Assembly: GCA_963971425.1 (NCBI GenBank)
Contig: OZ020517.1
Span: forward strand, 14,386,501 to 14,450,500
Source of the DNA: Bryoerythrophyllum caledonicum
Lineage: Eukaryota; Streptophyta; Bryopsida; Pottiales; Pottiaceae
DNA length: 64,000 nucleotides
Reading direction: 5' to 3'
Of this stretch, positions 13,037 through 28,700 are shown piece by piece. The notes below the pieces were generated by a model that saw only the letters and a list, made by a program, of their open reading frames with translations, had not been told where the DNA came from and did not search any database. Each line of letters opens with the position of its first letter. Position 1 is the stretch's first letter. The position numbers and the translations under genes were made by a program.

Positions 13037-14416
13037 TTAGGGATTTAGAGTATCTAGATCAATAATTCCCAGGAATTGCCGATGTTGTTCAAACTTGATT
13101 CTAGAGAGAGGTTTTGTGAAGATGTCCGCGGGTTGTGAGTACATGGATATATATTGTATATGGATTTTTCTCCTCAAAAAGTACTCTAGCATAAAATGAT
13201 AATGTACTTCAATATATAACGCCGTGGCATGAACAATAGGATTCTTGGCCAATTTCAATGTGGATTGATTGTTGCAAAAAATAGAGATGGGCTATAGCTT
13301 GGATTCAGTATTGCATGTTTGGTAGGGGCCGGAGGATGTGGAGGAGAAGTCAAGTTCTTCAAGTAAACGCCAAAGCCAAATTGCCTCAGGCGCGTTGATA
13401 GACAATCCAATGTATTCCGATTTGGTGCTACTTTTGGTGACAATAGGTTGGCGTGTAGACTGCCAAGTAATTGCTGATCCAACAAGAAGGTAGCAATAGC
13501 CACTAGTGGATTGATGTGTCTCAGAACAAGCCGCCCAGTCGATGTCTGTGAAGACTTGAGCAGGTGCAGTATCCTTGTGAGAGTAAAATAAACCATAAGG
13601 TGCAATTTTTTGATGTAACGAAGAATATCATAGACTGCTTCAAGGTATATCTATTGAGGAGCAGACATAAAACAAGATACAAGTCCAACCGCAAAAGCCA
13701 AGTCTGGACGTGTCGTCATGAGAAATATTAATTTTTCGACAATTTGATAGTACTTAGTGGAATTTGTGAGGAATAATGACATATTTGTTAAGAGTTGCAT
13801 GCTTGGAGGGAGTGGAACGTGTGCATGTTTACAGTCAGTCATACCGGTCACCAATGTCATGGAGAAGCTGTAATGCCTAGTCTGCTTGATTCAAGATGTT
13901 GTTGGAAGCCTACTTGAATTCAACACCTAGGTATCTAGTAAGTAAGCCTAAATTTGTAATGTCAAACTCGTTGCAAAATTGCCTTTAAAGCCATTCGATA
14001 TCATTCTTCTTTCCTCCGGTGATAAATAAATTGTCTACATAAATGACAAGAAGAGTCTTATGTTTTCCAGTACCTTTGCAAAACATATTTTGGTTTCTTA
14101 AGCTGCGTTTAAAACCCTTGGAGAGAAGATACTTGTAAATGTGTCCATACCATGCTCGCAGACTTTGGCGGAGAACATAAAGAGCTTTTTTAAGCTTGTA
14201 CACGAGATGTTTGGTGCCAGGCGCAATACATCCATTAGGTTGTTGCATATAAATTTCTTCTTCAAGATTTCCATAAAGAAATGTCGTTTCAACGTCCAGG
14301 TGGTGGATAAATTGTCCGAGTTGAGCGGCACCGGCCGTAAGTGTGCGGATAGTGGACCACTTGACCACAGGGGCAAAAACCTCGTCAAAATTGAATATAG
14401 ATTTGTTTGTTACCAA
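13037..14416 (-). pseudogene. Ty1/Copia pol relic (reverse transcriptase and RNase H)
   Basis: Minus-strand fragments give the order of a Copia polyprotein 3' half. The reverse transcriptase lies at 13985-14416, with FAPVVKWSTIRTL, HHLDVETTFLYGNL and the active-site box as YVDN instead of YVDD. The connecting region lies at 13651-13860 (TRPDLAFAVGLVS). RNase H lies at 13037-13605 and ends in IHIQYIS, then PADIFTKPLSR. At least two frame changes separate the parts, and the active-site Asp-to-Asn change adds to the evidence that it is dead. Family coding sequence stops abruptly at 14416, so integrase, gag and LTRs are absent. Confidence 0.88.
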
Positions 14417-14454: not shown

Positions 14455-16205
14455 CCTATTCCAAATGGCCACCCAATTCCAATCAGTAGAATATGCATGG
14501 TATGGTGCATGAAAATGACAAATGCATGAAATGGTGCATGAAGTGATCCAAAATCAATAACTCAAAATCTGAAAACACCAGTCATTATTGACATTGGGTC
14601 ATGAAGTGTGCAATTTTGGGTTGCTCCACCTCAATAAAGCTCTCATTCGTGGCATTGCCTCAAAAGTTGAACAAGGCCAATCGACATTGGGTACCCTCCA
14701 TGAGTTGGTTATCCATGGCATGTCTTCTCCCTTTTACTCACTCTCACTTGTTGGCATTGGAGAAAGGAGGCAAGTAAAACTCACATACTCTACAGTTTGA
14801 TTATGGGCTCCGGTGGTTTCCGGGTTTTTAAATTCTATATCAATTCCAAATCTTTCTAATTAAATTTGAAAAAATATTTGTTGAGTTTCATTCCTAATTC
14901 CGCATCTTTCTGCGTAAATGTTTTTGACATACAATGTCATTTGAGTCCCAAATTGGCTTAAGTGATCGGAATTGGGTGCCTCTACCTTATATGCACATGT
15001 ATTCAAGTGACAATTTCTTTGAGAATCTCTAATAAATCACATCTCCTATCCATCTAATTAGAATGCAATGCACATGACCAAAGATCAACCATGTGCCCTC
15101 ATGATCAAAGTTTAGCTCACCCCCCATCCCCCGAAGAGGATCAATTTGTTTTGTCCCCAAGTGGAGACCAAGTTGGCCAAGGCCCAAAGAACTCGTGAAG
15201 TTCTTTGAGAGGTTGGTGAGGGTGCGGACCTAGATGTGGATGTCAATCTAACTACCGGTGTATACAATTCTCCAAGTCCAAAACGTATGGACCACGTTAT
15301 TGTCGAGCACAATTGACTTACTCATATTGCGGGGTAGTGGAATCCAATCACGATGTTACCAATTGGTATATCACCCAAGTACCTAAACATTGCTCTAGCG
15401 TAGCATGCTAAGCTCTTCACGCCTTTCAAACAAGCAATGCACAATGAAGATCATCCAAAAGAAGAAAGGCCATTATGTATCCCACATACACCAGAAAGTG
15501 GATGAACTATCATATTGGTAGAATCTAGCGACTTGGGTTCTATTTCTACTCGGAAGATGTTCACCATTGTGTGTTGAGCTCTTTCAAAATGTGGGTTTTT
15601 ACTTGCCCAAACAATGTCCCATAAATCTGACATGTTAAGAGGCACCAATCTCAAGCGGTCGAAGATCATTGCCCTCAAGCGCGCTGGTTTCCACCTTCCA
15701 CAAAAGCAAGAAGTGTCTTCCCACCAACACTTCCAATTAGCCAATTTTGATGGTGTTGGCCTCATTGCATATCCAGTTCCAGAGGACGCTGACAAGCATC
15801 CTACGTTTCGGTTCACCAAAATGGTGAAGTGTCGTTCCGGCAGGCCAATTGTTGCCCAACTTCATGAATGAGGGTTTGCTAGCTCCTACGGTAAAGGGAA
15901 TGATTTGGATGCGCCCAATGTTAACCTTCACCAGATTAATTGCATTGTAGATCTTGAGGTTGACTCCTTCACTACCAACGCCTTCGAGCATTGTTACGTT
16001 GAACTCAATTTTGGCTTGAATATGTCCGGACTTTGTTTCAATGCAGGCGAAGGTCAACCAATTTGGTCGGTCTTGGTTTAATTGCAAGCATTTATACTTT
16101 GTTTATGGGATTATGTGCAAACTCAACAAGCTAGAGAACTTGTTTGTCCATGCCGCAAAACTCAACTTCAAGGAAAAAGAAGAAGAACTCCGGTCTCTAA
16201 AAGAG
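14455..16205. other. No recognisable gene; weak minus-strand coding remnant
   Basis: Minus-strand frames at 15451-15819 and 15737-16087 overlap and look like a decayed coding region, but I cannot name a family. The rest shows nothing. Confidence 0.25.
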
Positions 16206-16310
16206 GCCGGCGTGAATAAAGTGTCTGTTCGTTCCACTACTAAGGCAATGCCCACTGGGCAAAGGTTTAGTAGGATGGAACTACTTCCCCCTCTCGGAGG
16301 TAGACACTAT
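16206..16310 (+). repeat. Dispersed ~105-bp repeat, copy 1
   Basis: The sequence from GGCCGGCGTGAATAAAG to TAGACACTAT recurs at 63875-63981 in the same orientation, with most positions identical. It also recurs in shorter inverted form at 30131-30203. Weak inverted ends (AGTGTCT...AGACACT) suggest a very small non-autonomous transposon. It abuts the 3' end of the LINE. Confidence 0.65.
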
Positions 16311-16385
16311 AAAACAAAACATATTTAATGCCTTACGGTAGATTATTAGTATTGTTGATGGTGGTTGTGGTGAGTATAGTGTAAG

Positions 16386-19300
16386 TTAAGAGGTATGTGG
16401 GTCGGGTAGTGGTTGGTTGTTTTCTAGTCGTCTTTTATGGAGGAGGATGGACATTGCATGTTGGATAGCAATGGTGTTAAAGTTTCTAAAAGTATTTCGA
16501 ATGGAGGACTTTGAGATTTTAAATGTTTTTTCGAGTGATTCCATAGACGGAGTGTGTGTAGTAGCTTTGGCTCCGGCTGTGATAACTATTAGTGGGTCCA
16601 CTTTCCACCCTAATGTACTTATTTCATCTAGAAGGGGCTGATATTTGTTTATCTTGTGCCCTGTTGTTTCTGGTGAGAACCTGTTGTTGCAATAAGTGAA
16701 TTCTATGAACTGAATTGTGATGTTTGGATTTGGATTTGTTGGTGGGGGGTGATTGTGTGGTACTCCACGGAGGCATAGTAAATCTGGTTTAAATCGAGCA
16801 TTGCAGTGGCATCTTTGGGTAGTACATTTACATGGTAGTAGCCATTGTAGAACGGTATTTTCTGGTGAGTTATTTTGAAAGATACCGGCATTCATTAAGG
16901 TAAGACACCTAGATTTACTGGATGATATAAGTAATTTTTTGATTTCCCATACCGCTTTGTCATGTCTTTTTACAATGAGTGCGTGTATGTGTTGTTGTTG
17001 GCATTTAAGTAATACATGTAGCCAAGTATCTGGGTCGGTGGAATTACAGATCGGGCATGTGATGGAGGGGAATCTTTCACGACCAAAGAAGAGTTGTTTC
17101 CGGGCATTTCCCATATATTGGCCAGTTCTAAATTTTATGATACATGTTTTTTGTGAGTCTGTGATAAGGGGGTTTGTCCAAAATTCATTGGAGAGTTCAT
17201 TTTCGATGTTTCTATTTCCTTTCCATTTTTCTATATTTGGAAATTTTCTAGCTAATTCCGTTAAGTTGTTGTCTAAATCGTAGCGTTTGAGGTATTTAGG
17301 TAAGAACCTTATAGGGCCTTTGTCTGGAATTTCTTCCATAGATGGCCATTCTTTTCTTTGACAATAGTGTGGAGTGGGGTGGGCGTGTTCATATGGTTCT
17401 CCTGCTTCTCTATGGGCTTTTTCTCTACCTATTTTTGCTAGTTCGTCCGCTTTTTCAATGCCTCCAATGTTCACATGTGCTCTTACTTTGTGTATTGATA
17501 TAGGTTGGATTCGTGTTCGTAGCATTTCCACCATTGATGCTAAGATAGTTTTGTCTGGGTGGCTATTGTGCATAGTAGGGTGTTGAATTTGTGTGTTTAA
17601 TAGGTAAAGCACATTTATGCAGTCTGTAAATATGTGGGCAGACTCATCTGGGTATTTATCCTTCAAGATTCGAAGTGTTTTATGTACGGCCATCATTTCG
17701 GTTCTAATGATGTTTTGTAAGCCTTGTAGTCGTTTCGCTATTTTGATGTCTTTTGGTGCATTATATATGCCAAATCCTGCTCTTTGTCTGTGCCAGTGTC
17801 CTAGACTTACTTCAGTGGGTTCTTTAAATGATCCATCTGTGTAGTTGTTGTGTTCTGGATTGAATTTTAGAGGTAAGTTTGTGTTATAGGGTGGGAGTGG
17901 TGTTAAGGTGGTTGAGGGTGTCTGATTTATGCTAGGGAGGTTAGCTTTGGACCATGTCTTGTTTCGGTTAACTTTGATGGGTGCTAGCGTTGGAGGGGCT
18001 AAATTGGCATAGACTTGTTGTATGTTTAGAGTATTGATTAGTAGTTGAAATTGTTCTATATTTGTTTGGAGGTCTATTGTATTGTTTTGGTGGTGTATGC
18101 ATAGTATTTGTAGGGTGGATTTTTCTTTCCTGGGCTTATTTAATTCTTCTGGTATGGTAGGTTCAAAGTATGTTAAGGTATCTGTAGGGAATAGGCATAT
18201 GATGTGGGAGTCTGGGTAGGGACCATTGTGAGGGTTAGAATTTTGGTACCAATTTTCATCTGGTAAGACGAGATATGTTATGTTTCTTGGGTTATTTTTT
18301 GTTGCAAGTCTAGCCCAGTGTAATGATTGTTGGGCCTCTTCTTTATTGTGTGGGTGGGCATATCCTATGCCTTCCCATTTGTAATCAAATGCTTTGCCAA
18401 ATGAGCCGAAGATTTTGTCTCTAGAGAAGGGGGAGAAATTTTTTGTTATTTTAGTGGAGCATGTGACCGGGGATGAGAAGTAAGAGTGTTGAATGTTGTG
18501 TGTTGTGGTAAAGAAGTCAAGCAGTTCTGTTGGTATGGTGTAGTGTGTTCGTTTAAGGAGGTCCGTTTTAGGTATTCTATATTTGTATCTCTGATAAAGC
18601 CAAACGACTTCAATTTCAAAAGGTTTGGTTGTTGGTTCAAAATTGTGTGGGGTATTTAGTGTTTGGTGATATTGGTTCCAGAGCCATTCGAGTCTTATGG
18701 TGGGGATAGTGATTAGGTATTTTCCATCATTTTCATAGATATGTGCTTCGTTTTGTTGAATTTGAATGGTATGTTGTTGTGTGGCAATGTCTTTTTGTGG
18801 ATTACATTCGGTGATAGATATTTTTGCTAAAGGGATTTGTGTGGGGGGGGTGACCGATCTTATATCTCTGCATTGAGCTTGTGGGTGATGTGCTTGTATG
18901 ATGTTGTGATAGTATTTATTGGTTTTCTCTTGATAATATTTTTTAAGGCATGTTATGTTGTGGGATGCGGTATTAGGGTCATGCCATGGAAATATAGTTT
19001 TGTGTACGTGCCATTGACTATAAATGTTTTCTTGGATTTTCCATTGGCAAAGGTATGACGTTTTTTCTATTTTGATGTCATTAGGGTCGTGGTATGTACG
19101 TTGTTTATGTTGTACTATAGCATACAGTGGGTATGTTGTGGGGTTTTTTAGTATATATGGAGGTGGTTTTGAATATCGTGGTTGGGGTAGGTCAGGGGGA
19201 TGGATAGGTGGAGTAGGAATATGGGGGATAGTATTGTTGTTGGGGCAAATATATCTTTCTTTAAGTGTACGGGGATTTGGGTGTTCGTTGCACGGGTGGG

Positions 19301-19625
19301 GGCATGTGTCAAGACATTCTGGGAGACAAAAGAGTTGTTTTGTTAGGTTTAGTTCACTTTTTATTAGTCTTGTGGGTTTGAAGTGATATTTGTGGAATTC
19401 ATTTTCGTTCATTAAATGTGAGCCATTTGGTAGGGTGATTTGGCTAAGTGTAGTGATGTTTGCGGTGAATAGTACTTGTAGTAATTTCATCGATGTTTGC
19501 TCCCTTAGGTGTGGAAGTGTTGGGGTTTCAATTCTCCACATGCATTCTAATGGCGCTGGTGTTGTAAGGAAGTTGTTTAAGGTACTTTTTAGATATGTAT
19601 TTTCTTCCGTTTTGAGTAGGAACAA
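16386..19625 (-). CDS. LINE ORF2 C-terminal part: PCIF1-like methyltransferase domain, RNase H, zinc-knuckle, PD-(D/E)XK-like
   Basis: A frame of 1079 codons, open upstream to 19727 and in the same frame as the reverse transcriptase. Residues about 98-130 are Cys-rich. Residues about 165-235 look like a chromodomain (YAIV, then YLCQWK, then ending in LKKYYQ). Residues about 335-555 follow the PCIF1/CAPAM adenine-methyltransferase pattern: PTELLDFF, SSPVTC, DKIFGSFGKAFDY, GYAHPHN, ITYLVLPDENW, PDSHII. The catalytic NPPF of that family is HPHN here (18345-18356), so activity of this copy is doubtful. RNase H spans about 594-735 with YTDGS, RTEMMA, FTDC and KADELA, giving all four acidic residues. 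A CPIC...H...C knuckle lies at 857-874. KPDLL (946-950), FIEFTY and HKINKY suggest a restriction-like endonuclease. The RNase H call is secure; the methyltransferase call is a family-pattern inference. Confidence 0.8.
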   Translation of the reverse strand: MFLLKTEENTYLKSTLNNFLTTPAPLECMWRIETPTLPHLREQTSMKLLQVLFTANITTLSQITLPNGSHLMNENEFHKYHFKPTRLIKSELNLTKQLFCLPECLDTCPHPCNEHPNPRTLKERYICPNNNTIPHIPTPPIHPPDLPQPRYSKPPPYILKNPTTYPLYAIVQHKQRTYHDPNDIKIEKTSYLCQWKIQENIYSQWHVHKTIFPWHDPNTASHNITCLKKYYQEKTNKYYHNIIQAHHPQAQCRDIRSVTPPTQIPLAKISITECNPQKDIATQQHTIQIQQNEAHIYENDGKYLITIPTIRLEWLWNQYHQTLNTPHNFEPTTKPFEIEVVWLYQRYKYRIPKTDLLKRTHYTIPTELLDFFTTTHNIQHSYFSSPVTCSTKITKNFSPFSRDKIFGSFGKAFDYKWEGIGYAHPHNKEEAQQSLHWARLATKNNPRNITYLVLPDENWYQNSNPHNGPYPDSHIICLFPTDTLTYFEPTIPEELNKPRKEKSTLQILCIHHQNNTIDLQTNIEQFQLLINTLNIQQVYANLAPPTLAPIKVNRNKTWSKANLPSINQTPSTTLTPLPPYNTNLPLKFNPEHNNYTDGSFKEPTEVSLGHWHRQRAGFGIYNAPKDIKIAKRLQGLQNIIRTEMMAVHKTLRILKDKYPDESAHIFTDCINVLYLLNTQIQHPTMHNSHPDKTILASMVEMLRTRIQPISIHKVRAHVNIGGIEKADELAKIGREKAHREAGEPYEHAHPTPHYCQRKEWPSMEEIPDKGPIRFLPKYLKRYDLDNNLTELARKFPNIEKWKGNRNIENELSNEFWTNPLITDSQKTCIIKFRTGQYMGNARKQLFFGRERFPSITCPICNSTDPDTWLHVLLKCQQQHIHALIVKRHDKAVWEIKKLLISSSKSRCLTLMNAGIFQNNSPENTVLQWLLPCKCTTQRCHCNARFKPDLLCLRGVPHNHPPPTNPNPNITIQFIEFTYCNNRFSPETTGHKINKYQPLLDEISTLGWKVDPLIVITAGAKATTHTPSMESLEKTFKISKSSIRNTFRNFNTIAIQHAMSILLHKRRLENNQPLPDPHTS

Positions 19626-19730
19626 TGTTCTAGTAAGTAGAGATCTATAACAGTCTGAGCTTTTAATTCTAGGTAAGTATTCTGCTCCCCCATATTTGGC
19701 TAGTATAAAGTGTAGTAATCCATTGTATAT

Positions 19731-21509
19731 TTACCCTAATCTCCCTTTGTCATTCAACGCATTCAGGAGTTGTTCTCCAATGCATCGTAGATAGTCGTTT
19801 TTTAGTGAAAATGTTTCTAGACCAAAGTGGTTGTGTGGTAATTGTGTTATTACGTTTGAGGTGCATTTTGGAAGTCCACAAATTGATTTTTGTGCTGCTA
19901 TTATTTTTTTGTCGAGCTTTTTTATAGTAGGCATTGAATATGGTATAGTATAGAAACTATATGAGATTCCTGGTCTAATAACTATATCTATCATATTAAT
20001 TTTTTGTCTCATAGTAGCCGGACAATTAATTAGTGCTTGACATTGATTGTTGAGTTTTGTAGTTGTAACATGAGTCTGGATTTTCCATTTTAGTGAAGGT
20101 ACCATTTGGGCGCCTAAGTATACATATGCTTCATTTTTGTGTAACACAAGGATTGGTTGATTACGGTAATTGATGTTTGTGGTCTGAATTTGTGTTTTGA
20201 AAGCTGTGGGGTTCATTTTTTATTTATTAAGGGATCCGGTAACTGCGCATTTGGGTACCCCAACATCCATTCCGGTCCACTTACAATATCTATCTATTTT
20301 GTTTAATTGAATTTGTAATGATTTTAGTTTACCGGAAATGGCTGCTAAATCGTCTGCGTATGCAGCAGAGTTGACAGTGGTTTTTGATGTTCTAAATGTA
20401 TATCCATTATTACCGCATTGGAGCCATCTTAATAAAGGTTCGAGAAATATTATAAAGAGATATGGGCTAAGTGTGTCTCCTTGAATTGTGCCTCTTTGTA
20501 TGGGAATAGGGTGTGTTTTACCGAAATGTTCTCCAGTGAATGTGGTGGTAGAGTATGAATAGATATTTCCAACTAGAGTAGCTGCATCTTTTGGATAGCC
20601 AAGGTCAATCATGAGAGCAAGCAATCTTGCGTGATCTATTGAACCAAATGCATTTTTGAAGTCTATATAGAGAATATATATGTCTTGTTTGGTAAGTTTG
20701 GCGTCTTCTAGTGCAGCTGTTAGTGTTTGTATTTGTCGGGAAGTACTTCTTTCGGCTCGAAAGCCTTCTTGACTGTCATGTAATATGTTATGTTTTTCTC
20801 CATATGAGGATAAGATTGAAGTTAATGTATTGGTGTAGAGTTTATAAATGGTGTTGGCTAGGGCAATGGGTCGGTGGTTTGTTAGTATGAAGGGTTCTCC
20901 TTTTTTATAGAGTAGTATGGTCAGGCTATTTTTCCATAGTTGAGGAATACGTTTTTGTCTGTAGCAGTGTTTAAAGAAAAGGTATAAGAATTTATGGAAT
21001 ATTTCTGGCATATTTTTTAGTATGAAGTTTGGAATACGATCTGGTCCGGGGGCTTTATTGCTACTTATTTTTTTCAAGCACATATCATATATTTCTTTTG
21101 TAAAGTATGTCTGAATTGGGATGTTAGGTTCACCTCTTTTTTCTAGTACAAATCCATCCAAGTCGTGCCATGGGTATTGTCTGACATTGCAGGTACAGTT
21201 TATTAAGTGTTCAGATTGATTATAGCATGTGGGTATCGTGGGTTTGTTTATTTGTGATTGTTGTACGTAGATTTCATTGGCAATTTCTTCTGGATTTGTG
21301 AGAATGTTTCCATGCTCGTCTATGATGCAATCAAGGGCATGTGTTTTGTTGTTTTTGAAGACTTTTTTATTTATCTTTTTGGGGGTTTTATCATATAATT
21401 GTCTATATTTTGTGATGCCTTTTTGATGCACTCTTTGTTGTATGTGGTTGTGATTTTGCGAGCAAGTTTGTTGGCTTGTTTTGCTATTTGAGCTATATCG
21501 GATATCCAT
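19731..21509 (-). pseudogene. LINE reverse transcriptase domain
   Basis: Two stretches in one frame (20220-21509 and 19731-20216), separated by a single TAA at 20217-20219, give a complete LINE reverse transcriptase. NKAPGPDRIPNFILK begins the fingers. QEGFRAERST, YIDFKNAFGSIDH (catalytic Asp), QRGTIQGDTLSPYLF and AAYADDLAAI (active-site YADD at 20349-20360) follow in order, and the thumb region (YVYLGAQMVPSLKW) comes after the stop. It would copy element RNA into DNA primed from a nicked target. The frame continues beyond a second stop (19728-19730) into the RNase H part, so the original product was one long polyprotein. All catalytic motifs are intact; only the stops and the upstream frame shift break it. 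Confidence 0.92.
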
Positions 21510-22590
21510 GATTCTATTAGGATATCATCCTCCGGTGGTAGGGGTATATTTGTATGTCTATGGGTTTGGATACTATTGATTATCGGGTGGTTCCGCCAAT
21601 TTGGGTTGTTTTTAACCGTGCGTATGGTTTTACGGATGAGGTGATAGGTTGATAAATGTTTTTTCCAGGGTTTAGCAAGTTTTCTTGGTAAAAAACCTCC
21701 TTGTTGTGCTGTCCTTGGGGTAAGTTGTGGTAGAGGTTTTGCTTTACATGTTTGTTCTAATGTTGCAGAAATTTCTTGTGTTAGTATGTCTAGTGTATTA
21801 CAAGCTTCTAGCCATTGAATGTCTGTGAGGTTTATATTATTGTTTAGGGTGTTAGTCATTTGTTCTATTATCGATGAGTTTTTTTCAAAGTAGATACTAT
21901 GAAATCTTTCTATGTTTTCAGATGGGATAGGGTTTAATATTCTTGTGGTATTATTATTTGTTGTTTGAGGTGTTCTACTAATTAGTGTATTGTTGGGGAT
22001 GTGTAACTGAAGTGGGTAATGGTCGGAGTTTAGGTTATTTTCCGTATTGGTTGTACATGAGTATTGTTGTCGGATGTGGGTGTTTACATAAAACCCATCT
22101 ATTAAACTTGTTTCAGTATAGTTATAGCCACCTTGTCTTGAGAAATTTGTGTTTGTGTTAATGTATGTTAATTGTAGAGTTTCTATGTAAGTTCGCCATT
22201 GGAAGTCTAATTCTTGGGGGGGTGTTAAGTTATTACCAGTTCTTCGTCCTATGAAGGCGATGTCTCTGTTGAAGTCGCCTGTTAGAATATGGGTGAAGTT
22301 TGGGTGATTTTGTATTTGATTTGTGATATTGGTTTGTATTTCGTGTATAAGTTGGATATCTTCATGGTGTGAGGGCATGTATATATGTATAAGTAGCCAT
22401 GGTTGAAGTGATTTATTTGTAATTTTTATAATTTGTAAGTAAGGTGATATGTTGGGAGGGGTAGGAATTTTTGTTATGTTACCAGGAAATGCATATGATT
22501 TGTTGATTAATGTTAATAGTCCTCCACGGGCGGGGATGTAGGGTCTTCTTTGTTGTATGCATCTTGTAAGACCAAGTGTATTGTTGAAGA
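21371..22590 (-). pseudogene. LINE APE-type (EEP) endonuclease domain
   Basis: The frame at 21371-22378, with readable coding sequence extending up to about 22560, matches the endonuclease/exonuclease/phosphatase fold used by LINEs. ARGGLLTLI lies at the N-side, GDFN at 22268-22279, a mid-domain substrate-loop block, and NSDHYPLQL with the catalytic SDH near 22015-22029. After the nuclease, a linker of about 170 residues runs into the reverse transcriptase. There the reading frame shifts at a homopolymer-rich AAAACCCCCAAAAAG stretch near 21385. The protein would nick target DNA. The N-terminal catalytic Asn and Glu blocks are less clear because the frame changes there. Confidence 0.85.
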
Positions 22591-23364
22591 TTAGTTTATA
22601 TTCTGGAAAGAGTCTTTCAATGTATTTTGTAGATTTTGTGGGTGTGAGTATTTGGGGATGTTATTTAGGCATTTAAGTGATTCTATAATTATGTTATCAG
22701 GGAGAAATGGAAATTCTTCTTTTAATGTGAGGGGGTCCACTGTTGTAGTTTGTTCGTGGATACTATTGTAGATTTTGTTGTGAATTGAATCCGTTGGATA
22801 TGTTATGTTGTGATTATTTTTTAGAAATTGGGTATATATATGTTCGATACTGACATGTCTTTCGGGAGGGTTATTTAGGGTAGAAAGTTTGTGTAGTAGG
22901 GTTTTTGTCCAATCTGGGTTGTTGTTTTGGGTATTTGTGGAGATTATGGAGTTGCATGTTTCTATAGACGGATGGATTGTTATTATAATGGCGTATATAA
23001 TATGAGTTGGTGGGAAATTTGAAAGACTTTGGATGTATTGGGATAATTGGGGATGTGTGTTGTTATATTCATTGTTGAGTACGTGGGTGGGGTTCACGAG
23101 TGGGGAGTATATTTTTGCTAAGTGTTGGTATTCTCGCTGAAATTTAATCGTACACGGAATAAAATAGGTAATTGCTCATTTTTTGTGTATTGAGGGGTGG
23201 TTTTGTAATATGTTTGGCATAGGTCCGGGGTTTAATTCAATGTCACCACTGAGTAGTAGAAGAAAAGTTATGTCTATATTTTGTTTTGACGATTTTATAT
23301 TTGTGATTTTAGTTGAAATTATTTGTGTTTGCAAGGGTATGCATTTATACGTACGATGGTTCAT
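22591..23364 (-). pseudogene. LINE ORF2 N-terminal region with 2A-type motif
   Basis: ATG at 23364 opens a 62-codon frame that carries a 2A-type motif and then meets a TGA at 23174-23176. The same frame then continues open to 22591, so the original unit was about 257 codons. The part after the motif is rich in Asn, Thr, Ile and Pro and shows no domain I can name. In the Dualen family a cysteine protease lies in the polyprotein, but I see no Cys/His pair pattern here to support one. Ribosome skipping at the motif would have released a peptide of 47 residues from the main polyprotein. Confidence 0.6.
23221..23262 (-). other. 2A-type ribosome-skipping motif
   Basis: The peptide LLLLSGDIELNPGP matches the D-(V/I)-E-x-N-P-G-P consensus exactly, with the usual Gly before the Asp and a hydrophobic Leu run upstream. 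In known 2A sequences the ribosome skips the bond between the last Gly and Pro. 2A motifs near the N-terminus of non-LTR element proteins are described in trypanosomes and several animals. Here only Met-Pro-Asn follows before a spacer to the endonuclease. Confidence 0.8.
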
Positions 23365-24034
23365 AAAATTTGTGGCAGGGCTTTGGAATGTAGAGTAAAG
23401 GAGCGAATTTTGTGATGGTAAAAATGAGAAAATAGGGAGAGAACTGGGAGGTAAAATGGAAAGTGAGGAGATGGAGAGTAAAGAGGTGCGGGGTAGGATT
23501 AATAGAGTGAGGAGTGTGTGATTTGAGAATGGATGAGTGGTGTTCCAAAGTGGAGGACTGGGAGATTGAAGAATAAAAGAATAGTGTTCCGAGAGAAAGG
23601 AGTAATGAGTGGGAGTGTAAATAGTTCTAGAAGTATTAGAGTAATAACAATGGAAAAGGTTGTGAGTCTAGTACGTAGAATTTCGAACAAGAAAAGAGTA
23701 GAAAATGAAATGCTAGTAAAGAATAGTAAATAAAGAGGTATAGGAGTAAAATGTGGACAAATAAAAAGTAGGATATTGGGAATGAAATAGAAAAGGGAGT
23801 AGATAAGAAAAGAAAGATTAAAAAGAAAAAGATTGTAGAGTATGATAGTATAAAATAAGAGAGAGAATTCAACGGTTAGTAGTTTTTTCTTTTTAAAAGT
23901 GATGTTTGTTTCTAAGGTTTTTGTAGTATTTATAAATACTATATTTATATATATATAATTTTGTATTTTTTTAGTATTTTTAAATACTTTGTTGATTTTT
24001 TGTTTTATATTCCCCGCCGTTGCATTTGTCCAAA
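23365..24034 (-). other. Pyrimidine-rich spacer between ORF1-like frame and ORF2
   Basis: About 470 bp (23400-23870) are strongly purine-rich on the plus strand, hence pyrimidine-rich on the LINE coding strand. A very AT-rich stretch with inverted TAGTATTTATAAATACTA-like elements near 23925-23995 follows. No coding family is visible. It may be the LINE 5' untranslated region. Confidence 0.4.
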
Positions 24035-25652
24035 CTAGTTTGTCTGGTCCATGGATTCTTCTGGTAAAAGCTGATCCATGATAGCCATGGAGGACTTCAT
24101 TTGATTCTGTAAAAGTCTTATCTCTGTGCGGAGTGCACTCGTGTTTTTGATTTGCTCCATTTGCACGGTATCCACATAGGTTTTGGCCTCCGAAACAATC
24201 ACTTCTTTGAGGTTATCCATCTCTTGCCGAATTTCTCCCATAGTGGCTTTTGAGCTTTTGGCAATCGCGACATCAATTAGATTATTAATGTCTTTTTTGC
24301 TATAGGTCTCTCCCGTGGTGATGTTTAGGGTTTCCACCGTGTTGACGATGGCAGTATTGATATCCGAGAACCCTAGCCTCGTTAGCTCCTCCGGGCTTGG
24401 TTTCAATTTCCCATCCATACTACGAGGGTGTGCAATGAATTCCACATGCTTGTTAAGCATTTTCTCACATTTGTTTAGATATTTCTTGTAAACCGCAGCA
24501 TTTTTACACTCCACATTGCAACTCCCCACATGTTTGTCATTCTCAAGTCTAAAATAGACGCTAACAACATTTTCTTCCCCCATAAATCTTTTGATGGCTG
24601 CTTCTAGCTCATGGGTGGACTTGGTTTTGTTCAAGTTTTTGAGCAATTAGAACCACAACATTCTTTTTGGCTTTCTCATCCTCCATCATTTTTCCCCGTT
24701 TAGCAAACACTGGCATAAACACCTCACTCTCCGCATAAATCTTTTGGTTTTTTAGTTTGCTAGCTTCATCCGGTGTTGGTGTTTTCATCCATGCAAAATC
24801 TGCTACATCCTTCTTTGTCACCGTCGTTACCTCATGCTCTATTCCTCTTTTAAACCCTTCATTGACAATTTCAAAGAGGACCTCAAACCATTTCTTGTTT
24901 TGTAGGGAGGGACTGCTAATTCTGACGGATAAGAGTCTTTGGATTGCAATGGAGTCAAAGGACTTGCACACCTTATCCCTCACGAAGAGGGTTTCATCCA
25001 ATTTTAGGATGAAGGGACAATTCCCTGTAAGGAGGCTACATCCATCTATTTCAGGAGCATTTAGGTGAATTTTTACTACACCACTCCATTGATCCGACTT
25101 GTGAAGGCACATTATGGCAATTGGTTGTGCCATTCTTTCCCCCAGTGCTATTTCCATATGGGCAAGTCTTTCTCTAACCAAGTCTAACACTTCATCTTTA
25201 GAGAGTACACACTCCCCAATCTCAAAGGAGATGGCTACTTGGTAATCAAGGGAAAAACCAAATTTATCCACTTCCACATCACATGGTAGTTGGGTTAGAT
25301 TTAGATGGTTCCCCTCTTTCCCATCAGCTCTAGAGTTGGGCCATTGTTCTTGTGTGACGTATGGGAAGGACACATTCGCATCACATGCCTCTAGCGCTTC
25401 TTTATCGCTCATTCCTTCCAACTTCATCTCACTTACACTAAGGTGTTTGACTCTAGGACCCTCACGAAGTTGTTCCAAAGCATTCAAAGCATGAAATCCA
25501 AGCCAATATGGGGGTCTCGCACGTTTGACCGAAATTACCTCAAGGGATGTGTATGCCTCTTCCTCCAAATATAATCGTTTTGAGGGTGTCACGTCCATGT
25601 CATTCGTATCAACTTTGTTGGAGCAGGAAGATGCTTCAGCTGGTGAGTACAT
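24035..25652 (-). pseudogene. ORF1-like protein, probably retroelement nucleic-acid binding
   Basis: Two overlapping minus-strand frames, 24609-25796 (395 codons, likely start ATG at 25652) and 24035-24646 (203 codons), read as one protein of about 540 residues broken by a single frame shift near 24630. The C-terminal half begins with an RRM-like beta-alpha-beta-beta-alpha-beta pattern (NVVVL, then a helix, ENVVSVYFRL, SCNVEC, a helix, VEFIAHPR). It ends in a charged, coiled-coil-like stretch (EIRQEMDNLKEVIV onward). The N-terminal half has no family I can name. An RNA-binding ORF1 upstream of a LINE ORF2 fits the order, but base composition here is balanced while ORF2 is very G-poor. It could therefore belong to another element. 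Confidence 0.45.
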
Positions 25653-25796
25653 TCTACAAAGCATAAAGAAGAGATATAAAGTGATGTTTTTAAGTATAGG
25701 AGCATTTCCATAAGATCCACTAATCCTTCCATTCCACAATTTAAGTTGTGGGCCGTGTAGGAGAGGAGAGTGGACTAGGAAAAGATTTTGTTGCAA

Positions 25797-28700
25797 TATG
25801 TTCAGGTATAAGAATGTATCAAATATGATAACTCTTTCCCTGTACTTGCTGATTGAATTTATCTTACGAAGAGAACAAGTGCTATTTTAGCAATGCTCTT
25901 TCCCAATGCTAACTAAACAAACATGTATACAAACATGGGCAAAACAAATGTTATATCCTACTACCTTATTACTATTACATATCTCACATTGCATGATGTC
26001 AACACTATCAACAATTCTCCTACACATTAAGCTTGACACATACCAAATATCATTACATAGTTTGCTACTTCTAATACATATTGCAAAGAGACACTTCGTA
26101 GATACACCATAAAATTTGATGGTGTATCTTTCCACATAGTACAATTTTATATCAAGTGCATAAAACATACAATGATGGTTTACACAAGCCTCACAAAGTA
26201 AGAACTCTCTACCATGGCAATACCAACCTTGTGGGTTTCTTGTGTGTGGTTTGGCCTCCTTTCTTGGCTTCTTGTAACGTCCTCTTGCCGGTACTTCCAG
26301 GGGGATCACTCTTCCTTCTGACGACGTGATTGTCTTCTAGAGGTTCTGTCTGCCTCTTGGCAGATTTTCTTCCTGTTGTCGCCAACATACCCTCTGCTGG
26401 TTTGATGAAAAAGAGGTCAGTTTATGGTGGGATGGTTGATTCTAGCGGCGGGGCATATGAGGTGGGGACAGTCTCGTCTCCGCGCAGGGGCACACCAGCT
26501 TCGAGTTTCTTCTCTGGTTCGGGGGACTCTTACGCACCGTTTGACAGGTCTCCAGATTCGAGTGCTCCCGGTATCTCCTTCTTTGCTGGAGCAGCACTGA
26601 GCTGCTTGTGAGGCTGGAGTCTGCCATGTTCACGGGCGTATAGCACTTCGTGGTGCGATCTTCCCGTAGGTACTCGTCCGGACAGCAGCACGCCACTTGG
26701 ATCGTAACTCCACGATTCCGCCAGGCCGAGTCCGATGCTGTGCTTTCCCTGCGGCCGCTCCGCTTGAGTCGTTGTTTGTCTTTGTTGTTCAGATGTCTCC
26801 AAGGGGTGATAACTCCTCCGAGTCGGCTGGTCCTCTAAGATTCAGAGCGGTGTCGAAGTAGGAGCATGCTAGGGTGTGGTGGTTGCAGGAAAGAAAAGTA
26901 AATTGCCAATGGTAGAGAGAGGGAAAAGTTCATCGTAACTTGTGGACACGGCCCGTGGTGCGGGGCCCGTAGAAGAGCGAGCAGGTGGTGTATATGTGCG
27001 CCGAGGAGACGCGCGGCGACGTTGAGATGGAACGGAGCCGGGGTTGTAGACGCGGCTCGACACTGGCGAAGAAAACGCCTCACGGTAGCTTCACGTACGG
27101 GAACGCCTCCAGCACCTCGAGCAGGCTGCGCTGGCTCGCCACCACCCACTACGCGTGCTCCACCTTCCCTTGCTGGACCGCTCCAAGGTTTGGAACTTCT
27201 TGTTGTGTTGCCGTTCACGTCTACGCTAGTCAGGAGCTCTGCAGTTGATGTGTCGGAGAGGCAGAAGAGAACGCGTTAAGCAGTTATGGTGCTAGCTCGA
27301 GAGGGTTTGTGGCGTCTGCAAACCTGGTATTTGTAGTAATGTGGGCCGTCTCGGGTTTCAAGTTTCAGTTGAGGATTTGGTGGCTGGCTGCGCGGCTGCT
27401 TAGGGTTTGATGTCGCAGATTGTTCTCCTGGCCGAACGATCATTCCTTGATGGTTGAGACTCAACCTTCGATTTCGCACTAAATTTGGTGGTGATGATAG
27501 TGCCGTTGCTGGAGTTGTTGCAGGGTTCGGCGTCAGTTGTTGGTCATGGCACTTGAGGTGGTTGGCGAGTTGTGCTTTGTCCTTGAGCTTGTATGTTTGC
27601 AGACTCCAGTGTTTGGTGATGTCTCTCTAGAAAGGGCTTCTGTCGACATTGGTTTTTACACGTGAAATTCTTCTGCTTGGGCGAAGTGTGCTTTCTTGTG
27701 CTATTCTCGCGTCCTTGAGATGAGGTATTGTTGTTGTTTTAGATCTGGGGCTCCTCCTCCATGATCCGTGCTTCTCTGGTTCTTTGCTGCAGACATGGAT
27801 TTGAGGTGTCGACGTAGTGTCTTCTCTTGATCTTGACAGTGTTGTGTCAAAAGGTTTCTTCTGTAGTCTTTTGTATTGTTGCGCGCGCCTGCTGGTACGT
27901 TCTCTTCTGCCTCGTGTGTCTTCACATGATCCGTGTTCCTCTGGTTCTTTGCTGCAGATAGGGATTTGAGGTATTGACGTAGGCGCACGCCTGCTGGTAC
28001 TTTCTCTCCTGCCTCGTGTGTCTTCCCTGTGGACTCTGCAGTTTGGAGAGGATTCGCAGGGTGGATCAACATCGTAAAGGTTAGTACATGATTTCGATCT
28101 GGATCTAAAGCACCGCCTCCATGCTTCGTCCTCTGATTCTTTCATGTACACGAAGGTAACGAAGGTATCGCATAACCATACAGTAGCTGATCTTGGTCTT
28201 GTTGATGGTGTCGTATTGTCGACAGGTTTCTTCTGCCGTTTCTGCATGTCTTCCACCTGGTCAGTGCATTCGATAACAGCTTCGTAGATCCGAGAGTCTA
28301 CCTTGTTTTGGTTAGGATCTAGGGGTAGTAATTCTTTACGACGCATTAGAGTGTAGCTAGCTTGGACTTCTGATCTGGTTGTTCGACCTAAGCAGTAGCT
28401 ATATTTTGTATTTTTTGTGTAGACTGACATTAGGACGTAGCAGCAGGTAGAAGCATGGAGTGTTATGGTGTGTGCTTTTAAAATGTATTGATCTAATACT
28501 ACTGTTTCAAAGCTAATAGCTATGTTATGTGTGGAAGACAAACTGTGAGTGAGATATGATAGCAATGAAAAGCAAGTGCAAAAGAAAGTGTAAGAAGTAG
28601 CCTGAGATTGAAGGTGTTTGCTGTAGTTGTTGATGTTGAACGCCGTCTCCATTTTGTAAAGGTGAATGTCAGGTTCGGGGGTAAGGAATGGACTTGTGGG

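Follow-up and report, generated by a model that had tools for sequence, protein, structure and literature searches.

The question raised by this locus is whether a plant long interspersed nuclear element (LINE) can carry the methyltransferase domain of PCIF1/CAPAM and, if so, in what capacity the domain has been kept. The window analysed, 64,000 nucleotides of Bryoerythrophyllum caledonicum (assembly GCA_963971425.1, contig OZ020517.1, positions 14,386,501 to 14,450,500 of the forward strand), contains such an element on its minus strand, and an earlier sequence-only reading had claimed a PCIF1-like N6-adenine methyltransferase domain at 17961-18623, between the reverse transcriptase (RT) and RNase H of a LINE. 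Analysis of homology, predicted fold, position, catalytic motif, host copies and selection revealed a PCIF1 homologue with the predicted PCIF1-type fold that lies in one frame with endonuclease (EN), RT and RNase H, has the catalytic Asn and Phe replaced in the sequences read, occurs in near-identical copies and is under purifying selection. On balance, the explanation favoured here is that a PCIF1-type fold was captured by the LINE, had its catalytic motif replaced and was kept as a non-catalytic binding module.

Regarding homology, the window frame matched the Pfam family PCIF1_WW (PF12237) over residues 359-488 with an E-value of 1.6e-7 (31.5 bits against a cut-off of 31.1), and the 221-residue piece alone scored slightly below this cut-off (30.7 bits, E 2.9e-7). 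A match at E <= 0.01 was present in 75 of the 78 aligned family members including the window, the best reaching 1.7e-14. Despite its name, PF12237 is described as the CAPAM-like methyltransferase rather than a WW domain (PMC7641849). A single-sequence search of the PDB with the domain (phmmer) gave nothing at E <= 1, and PCIF1 emerged with a domain-only profile after two other profiles had failed to single it out: one with flanks matched PCIF1 only weakly (0.18 and 1.3), the other listed RNase H and RT chains and no PCIF1 among the best 60 of 81 matches, and the domain profile of 15 sequences had only two matches at E <= 1, both to PCIF1 (zebrafish, 5.1e-7; human, 7.2e-4). The HMMER alignment pairs SPLNC with SSPvtC, FGS-G with FGS-G and human ANPPF with the family's Ahppn; the peptides quoted in the sequence-only reading are all present in the minus-strand frame, and the short motifs SSP-TC, D--FGS-G, H-W-AR and D-H are kept across deep divergence. 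The LINE domain thus descends from the methyltransferase domain of a PCIF1/CAPAM-type protein. Relatives were absent from two further collections, viral contigs (22 pattern-matching stretches) and genome contigs (31 stretches). One relative, P0019, is filed in NCBI under an archaeal metagenome-assembled genome (Candidatus Nitrosocosmicus), probably through eukaryotic contamination of the bin.

The predicted fold is that of a PCIF1-type Rossmann methyltransferase, as had been proposed from the sequence; the structural outcome that the sequence-only reading had named as refuting it, a fold of another kind, did not arise. Of five runs of a first structure model one was good (73.2; the others 39.1-42.3), and a deeper model with a predicted local distance difference test (pLDDT) score of 87.9 was used instead. 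Structural alignments to PCIF1 reach human residues 417-668 only; the helical domain lies outside them and may still be present elsewhere.

The carrier is a plant LINE with a single polyprotein, comprising a 2A-like peptide, an EN of the apurinic/apyrimidinic endonuclease (APE) type, RT, a Cys-rich stretch, a chromodomain-like fold, the PCIF1-like domain, RNase H and a C-terminal CPIC...H...C stretch, both Cys stretches having been recognised by eye only. The defining pair of an APE-type EN and an RT in one polyprotein is present, in broken frames in the window and in a single frame in the host copy L022 (L022:839-7885); there Pfam detected RVT_1 (1.1e-28), RNase_H (6.4e-12) and PCIF1_WW (1.6e-8) and, below the cut-offs, Exo_endo_phos_2 (6.1e-6, 26.5 bits) and Exo_endo_phos (0.0012). 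Exo_endo_phos_2 in the window scored 32.9 bits against a cut-off of 27.4. Both the LINE carrier and the place of the domain, downstream of RVT_1 and upstream of RNase_H, agree with what the sequence-only reading had stated. The window copy has in-frame stops and frame changes upstream of 19730 and is open from 19730 through the PCIF1-like domain and RNase H; positions 16386-19730 (minus strand) form a 1114-residue stop-to-stop frame, of which 17961-18623 are residues 370-590. The sequence-only reading had not named the open strand of 17961-18623, which is the minus strand; the plus strand in the same phase has many stops. In a check for long terminal repeats (LTRs) over 14-27 kb the reported direct repeats were all <=28 nt, the insertion ends being unmapped.

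Sixteen host copies were chosen for long frames, 15 of which have frames of at least 2,450 codons in the fetched stretch (L030 has 1,857). The window peptide GDIELNPGP has the 2A/StopGo pattern D-x-E-x-N-P-G-P and may mediate skipping; NPGP lies in the long frame of 14 of the 16 copies, where it is followed by 2,347-2,352 codons. The RNase H D-E-D-D residues, two RT aspartates and the two endonuclease residues checked are kept in all 16. Median pair identity among these copies is 89.4%, whereas four copies on the large contigs C7, C11, C14 and C15 share 99.84-99.89% identity across some 6,970 bases; the LINE has apparently been active recently. A short way upstream of its 2A peptide, L022 has a long microsatellite that translates as poly-Thr.

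The catalytic motif was read in two sets. Protein searches considered only candidates with short words in common with the query, and could miss distant NPPF-bearing members; they gave 212 sequences (211 relatives and the window), of which 191 match the domain hidden Markov model, 142 of them covering the motif and 49 not. The first motif residue among the 142 is His in 113, Tyr in 15, Phe in 12, and Pro and Arg in one each, and never Asn, Asp or Ser; the position of the PCIF1 Phe holds neither Phe nor Trp in any and Tyr in five. The loop varies by lineage (AHPHN, AHPPS, AFPTD, AYPTD), AHPHN accounting for 58 sequences. NPPF was found in none, and the motif [DNSH]PP[YFW] given in a review for N6-methyladenosine (m6A) enzymes (PMC7927073) is fitted by two, both reading HPPY (P0192 and P0205), and by none of 96 host loci.

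In the host genome, 5,075 first-look candidates yielded 150 scored domain matches, all at least 60% identical, and 96 loci (95 distinct places including the window) were read, 55 of the 150 scored matches being unread. His is the first residue in 95 of the 96 loci, the other being a Tyr in a copy with a stop; AHPHN occurs in 82 of the 96, in 61 of the 67 whose domain is free of stops, and HPHN in all 16 long-frame copies. Over the 95 places, residue H459 is held under synonymous change (CAC 69, CAT 25, one Tyr), P460 uses all four Pro codons with one Leu, and N462 is AAT in 42 and AAC in 48, with five others. The sequence-only reading had taken the changed motif as peculiar to this copy and had looked to intact family members as methyltransferases; HPHN is instead the conserved form, and the sequences read contain no NPP-type motif. 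Its proposed comparison of sister copies thus came out on the side that it had itself named as adverse to a methyltransferase, for host matches limited to at least 60% identity. The accompanying idea that the element marks its own RNA or complementary DNA (cDNA) is therefore unlikely, though not disproved, as far as N6-methylation by the known mechanism is concerned.

Inactive PCIF1 has been made by changing NPPF to APPA or SPPG, changes of N553 and F556 inactivate the enzyme (PMC10544176), and METTL16 is inactive as N184A, PP/AA or F187G (PMC7927073). Judged from its sequence, the LINE domain has probably lost N6-adenosine methylation and persists in a non-catalytic role, and its description as a conserved pseudo-methyltransferase is quite likely correct.

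Selection was estimated as the ratio of nonsynonymous to synonymous substitution rates (dN/dS; Nei-Gojobori, pairs with dS 0.02-1.5, 71-98 of 120 pairs per domain), the pairs not being independent because they share ancestry. The values were 0.050 for RNase H, 0.057 for RT, 0.082 for the C-terminus, 0.123 for EN, 0.137 for the PCIF1-like domain, 0.149 for the part from 2A to EN, 0.181 for the chromodomain-like part and 0.303 for the linker. Among 20 hand-picked proteins, mean identity was 51.0% for the PCIF1-like core, 55.9% for RNase H and 31.9% for the linker, and the core was more conserved than the linker in all 190 pairs and more conserved than RNase H in 23 of them. The PCIF1-like domain is thus under purifying selection.

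As a binding module, the domain would most likely bind either RNA, with the 5' end of the LINE mRNA, a PCIF1-like substrate, as one candidate, or the RNA-DNA product located between RT and RNase H; this RNA-binding step is put forward tentatively. The adjacent chromodomain-like fold may contact chromatin or the same complex.

Several points weigh against a non-catalytic binding module. HPHN is strongly conserved in the host copies, which could signal a new active site; a first-position His stays compatible with an m6A enzyme because the review motif allows it; and the distant relatives P0192 and P0205 fit that motif formally. The PCIF1 helical domain is the cap-binding part (PMC10544176), and as it lies outside the alignments, cap binding becomes less likely if that domain is truly missing. 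Furthermore, the host copies were found through the PCIF1-like domain, so that copies of this LINE family lacking it would go unseen; for the same reason the presence of the domain in the fetched copies proves nothing by itself, while the motif does.

Alternatively, the captured fold may be a structural spacer that only positions RNase H relative to RT and has no ligand of its own, which would account for a fold kept with its catalytic residues replaced and for a dN/dS above those of RT and RNase H. The conservation of SSP-TC, D--FGS-G, H-W-AR and D-H goes beyond the needs of a spacer, an argument rather than a test, and this explanation is considered rather unlikely. Less probable again is that the domain is still an enzyme, with HPHN (or AHPP-, AFPT-, AYPT-) as an altered active site that methylates element RNA, its cap or cDNA, or performs other chemistry dependent on S-adenosylmethionine or a metal. 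In its fullest form the HPHN loop would be a new active site, and the LINE would encode an enzyme of altered chemistry that modifies RNA or cDNA, with a chromodomain-like fold beside it, writing and reading marks during target-primed reverse transcription, which is likewise improbable. The altered active site is retained as a minor alternative because HPHN is conserved in the host copies, its residues being held against synonymous change in the 95 places, and the permitted His and the two HPPY relatives also speak for it. However, the loop differs between lineages, with RNase H residues held better, though not uniformly, across the database proteins (regular-expression matches: first Asp 101/119, Glu 76/105, FTD Asp 86/125, last Asp 61/67). 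At the Phe position Phe and Trp are absent from all 142 sequences and Tyr occurs in five, and changes of N553 and F556 inactivate PCIF1.

A decaying passenger without function would fit the lost catalytic motif and a dN/dS higher than in RT and RNase H, but is very improbable with a value near that of EN and well under that of the linker, and with a core more conserved than the linker in every pair. A fortuitous match to Pfam, or a retrocopy of host PCIF1 adjoining the LINE, might be suspected from a window score only 0.4 bits above the cut-off and the empty single-sequence PDB search, but is scarcely credible when family profile and fold both single out PCIF1 and when a single open frame encodes the domain together with RT and RNase H in L022, and together with RVT_1 in P0198. 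These last two explanations were rejected on core-versus-linker identity, the domain profile against the PDB and dN/dS.

The neighbouring fold, between RT and the PCIF1-like domain, is chromodomain-like in sequence, and in the model with a pLDDT of 87.9 its part of the window has predicted strands E8-20, E26-38 and E41-48 and a helix H58-87. In the relative P0163, Pfam detected a clear Chromo match, N-terminally cut, at E 4.3e-9 upstream of the PCIF1-like domain, and in the relative P0125 a weak one (0.023); PF00385 was matched at E <= 1 in three of 13 members. The chromodomain profile gave 0.0042 with P0163 and was weak without it (best 0.34, six of seven matches being chromodomains). No Pfam family matched the window's version, and no chromodomain chain appeared among the matches listed in the fold searches, in which this part was not searched alone. 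The fold is named only chromodomain-like because the profile leans on P0163, and in view of these two negative results.

Table 1. Features of the LINE copy in the window (window positions; all on the minus strand)
Feature	Position	Strand	Basis and remarks
LINE coding region, this copy	16386..23667	-	Open reading frame (ORF) table; begins with the frame that holds the 2A-like peptide and runs to the last stop; upper limit is stop-to-stop, start unmapped
2A-like (StopGo) peptide GDIELNPGP	23221..23247	-	Read in the sequence; near the start of the coding region
APE-type endonuclease (Exo_endo_phos_2)	22013..22396	-	Pfam match over residues 89-216 of frame 21371-22660, E 6.3e-8
Reverse transcriptase (RVT_1) with YADD	20238..20906	-	Pfam E 8.6e-29; PDB matches to R2 and LINE-1 ORF2p
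Chromodomain-like fold of three strands and one helix; degenerate form in this lineage	18915..19133	-	Predicted secondary structure; Chromo match in relative P0163
PCIF1/CAPAM methyltransferase-domain homologue (likely pseudo-methyltransferase)	18033..18779	-	Frame residues 318-566
SSPVTC, counterpart of PCIF1 SPLNC	18459..18476	-	HMMER alignment; conservation
DKIFGS, counterpart of PCIF1 D..FGS	18402..18419	-	HMMER alignment; conservation
HPHN at the place of catalytic NPPF	18345..18356	-	HMMER alignment; motif census; synonymous codon changes, residue held
RNase H	17427..17846	-	Pfam E 4e-10, residues 629-768 of frame 16386-19730

Beyond the element, the window contains exons of a 1,3-beta-glucan synthase, which we take to be callose synthase, a flavin adenine dinucleotide-dependent glycerophosphate-oxidase-like protein and pentatricopeptide repeats; these genes fit a green plant, and the plant host named from the sequence agrees with this gene content. 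The window yielded neither a tRNA nor any Rfam match that reached the gathering score. After the LINE stop, the RNA of 16200-16320 (minus strand) folds better than shuffled sequences (-39.1 kcal/mol, z -2.98) and is possibly a 3' tail structure, the 3' end of the element being unmapped. Two minus-strand frames upstream of the LINE, 24035-24646 (best Pfam match 0.01) and 24609-25886 (no Pfam match), were left outside the element and could be an ORF1 or belong to another element. A Copia-like reverse transcriptase fragment at 13985-14416 (minus strand) was recognised by eye from the ORF table.

Compared with known systems, the LINE domain resembles that of PCIF1/CAPAM (PF12237; PDB 6irv, 6irw, 6irx, 6iry, 6irz, 6is0) in profile and fold, in SP--C and D--FGS-G and in the A-x-P of the catalytic loop, but lacks NPPF, the Asn being replaced by His (or Tyr, Phe) and the Phe by Asn and others. 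It also differs in sitting in a polyprotein, and no WW domain was among the five families at E <= 0.01 in the Pfam scan of the whole 2,349-residue L022 frame. PCIF1-like proteins of giant viruses (Pithovirus, Hokovirus, Tetraselmis virus) have the same fold (Foldseek E down to 1.5e-8 in BFVD) and are likened to it by fold. In DCD-CAPAM-like fusions of a haptophyte and choanoflagellates, a reader-type domain is described as standing at the N-terminus where the cap-binding helical domain would lie (PMC7641849); these fusions likewise join a CAPAM-like domain to a reader-type partner, there a DCD and here a chromodomain-like fold in a retrotransposon. Captured methyltransferases have been described in retroelements, DAM in DIRS and DCM/DNMT in Ty3/Gypsy and DIRS (PMC6338049, PMC5890265), but these belong to other methyltransferase families and element classes, and in the LINE the catalytic motif is replaced. 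Chromodomains are reported in the polyproteins of LTR elements such as chromoviruses and Chronos (PMC5348765), whereas here the carrier is an APE-type LINE and the fold lies between its RT and RNase H, and 2A-like sequences have been linked with non-LTR elements (PMC4981915). The passages on PCIF1 in PMC8868631 carry no word on transposons, and among the matches listed in the open-access literature there was no description of a PCIF1-like domain in a LINE, which does not settle priority.

If true, a LINE that took up a cap-methyltransferase fold, lost the catalytic motif and kept the rest under selection would clearly exemplify how a retroelement can make an RNA-modification enzyme a component of its machinery. 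The long-frame, near-identical host copies allow direct questions on which functions a LINE requires between its RT and RNase H, on how the element's RNA is recognised and on what uses the PCIF1 fold has without methylation, and, if the chromodomain-like neighbour binds histones, the target-site choice of a plant LINE becomes testable.
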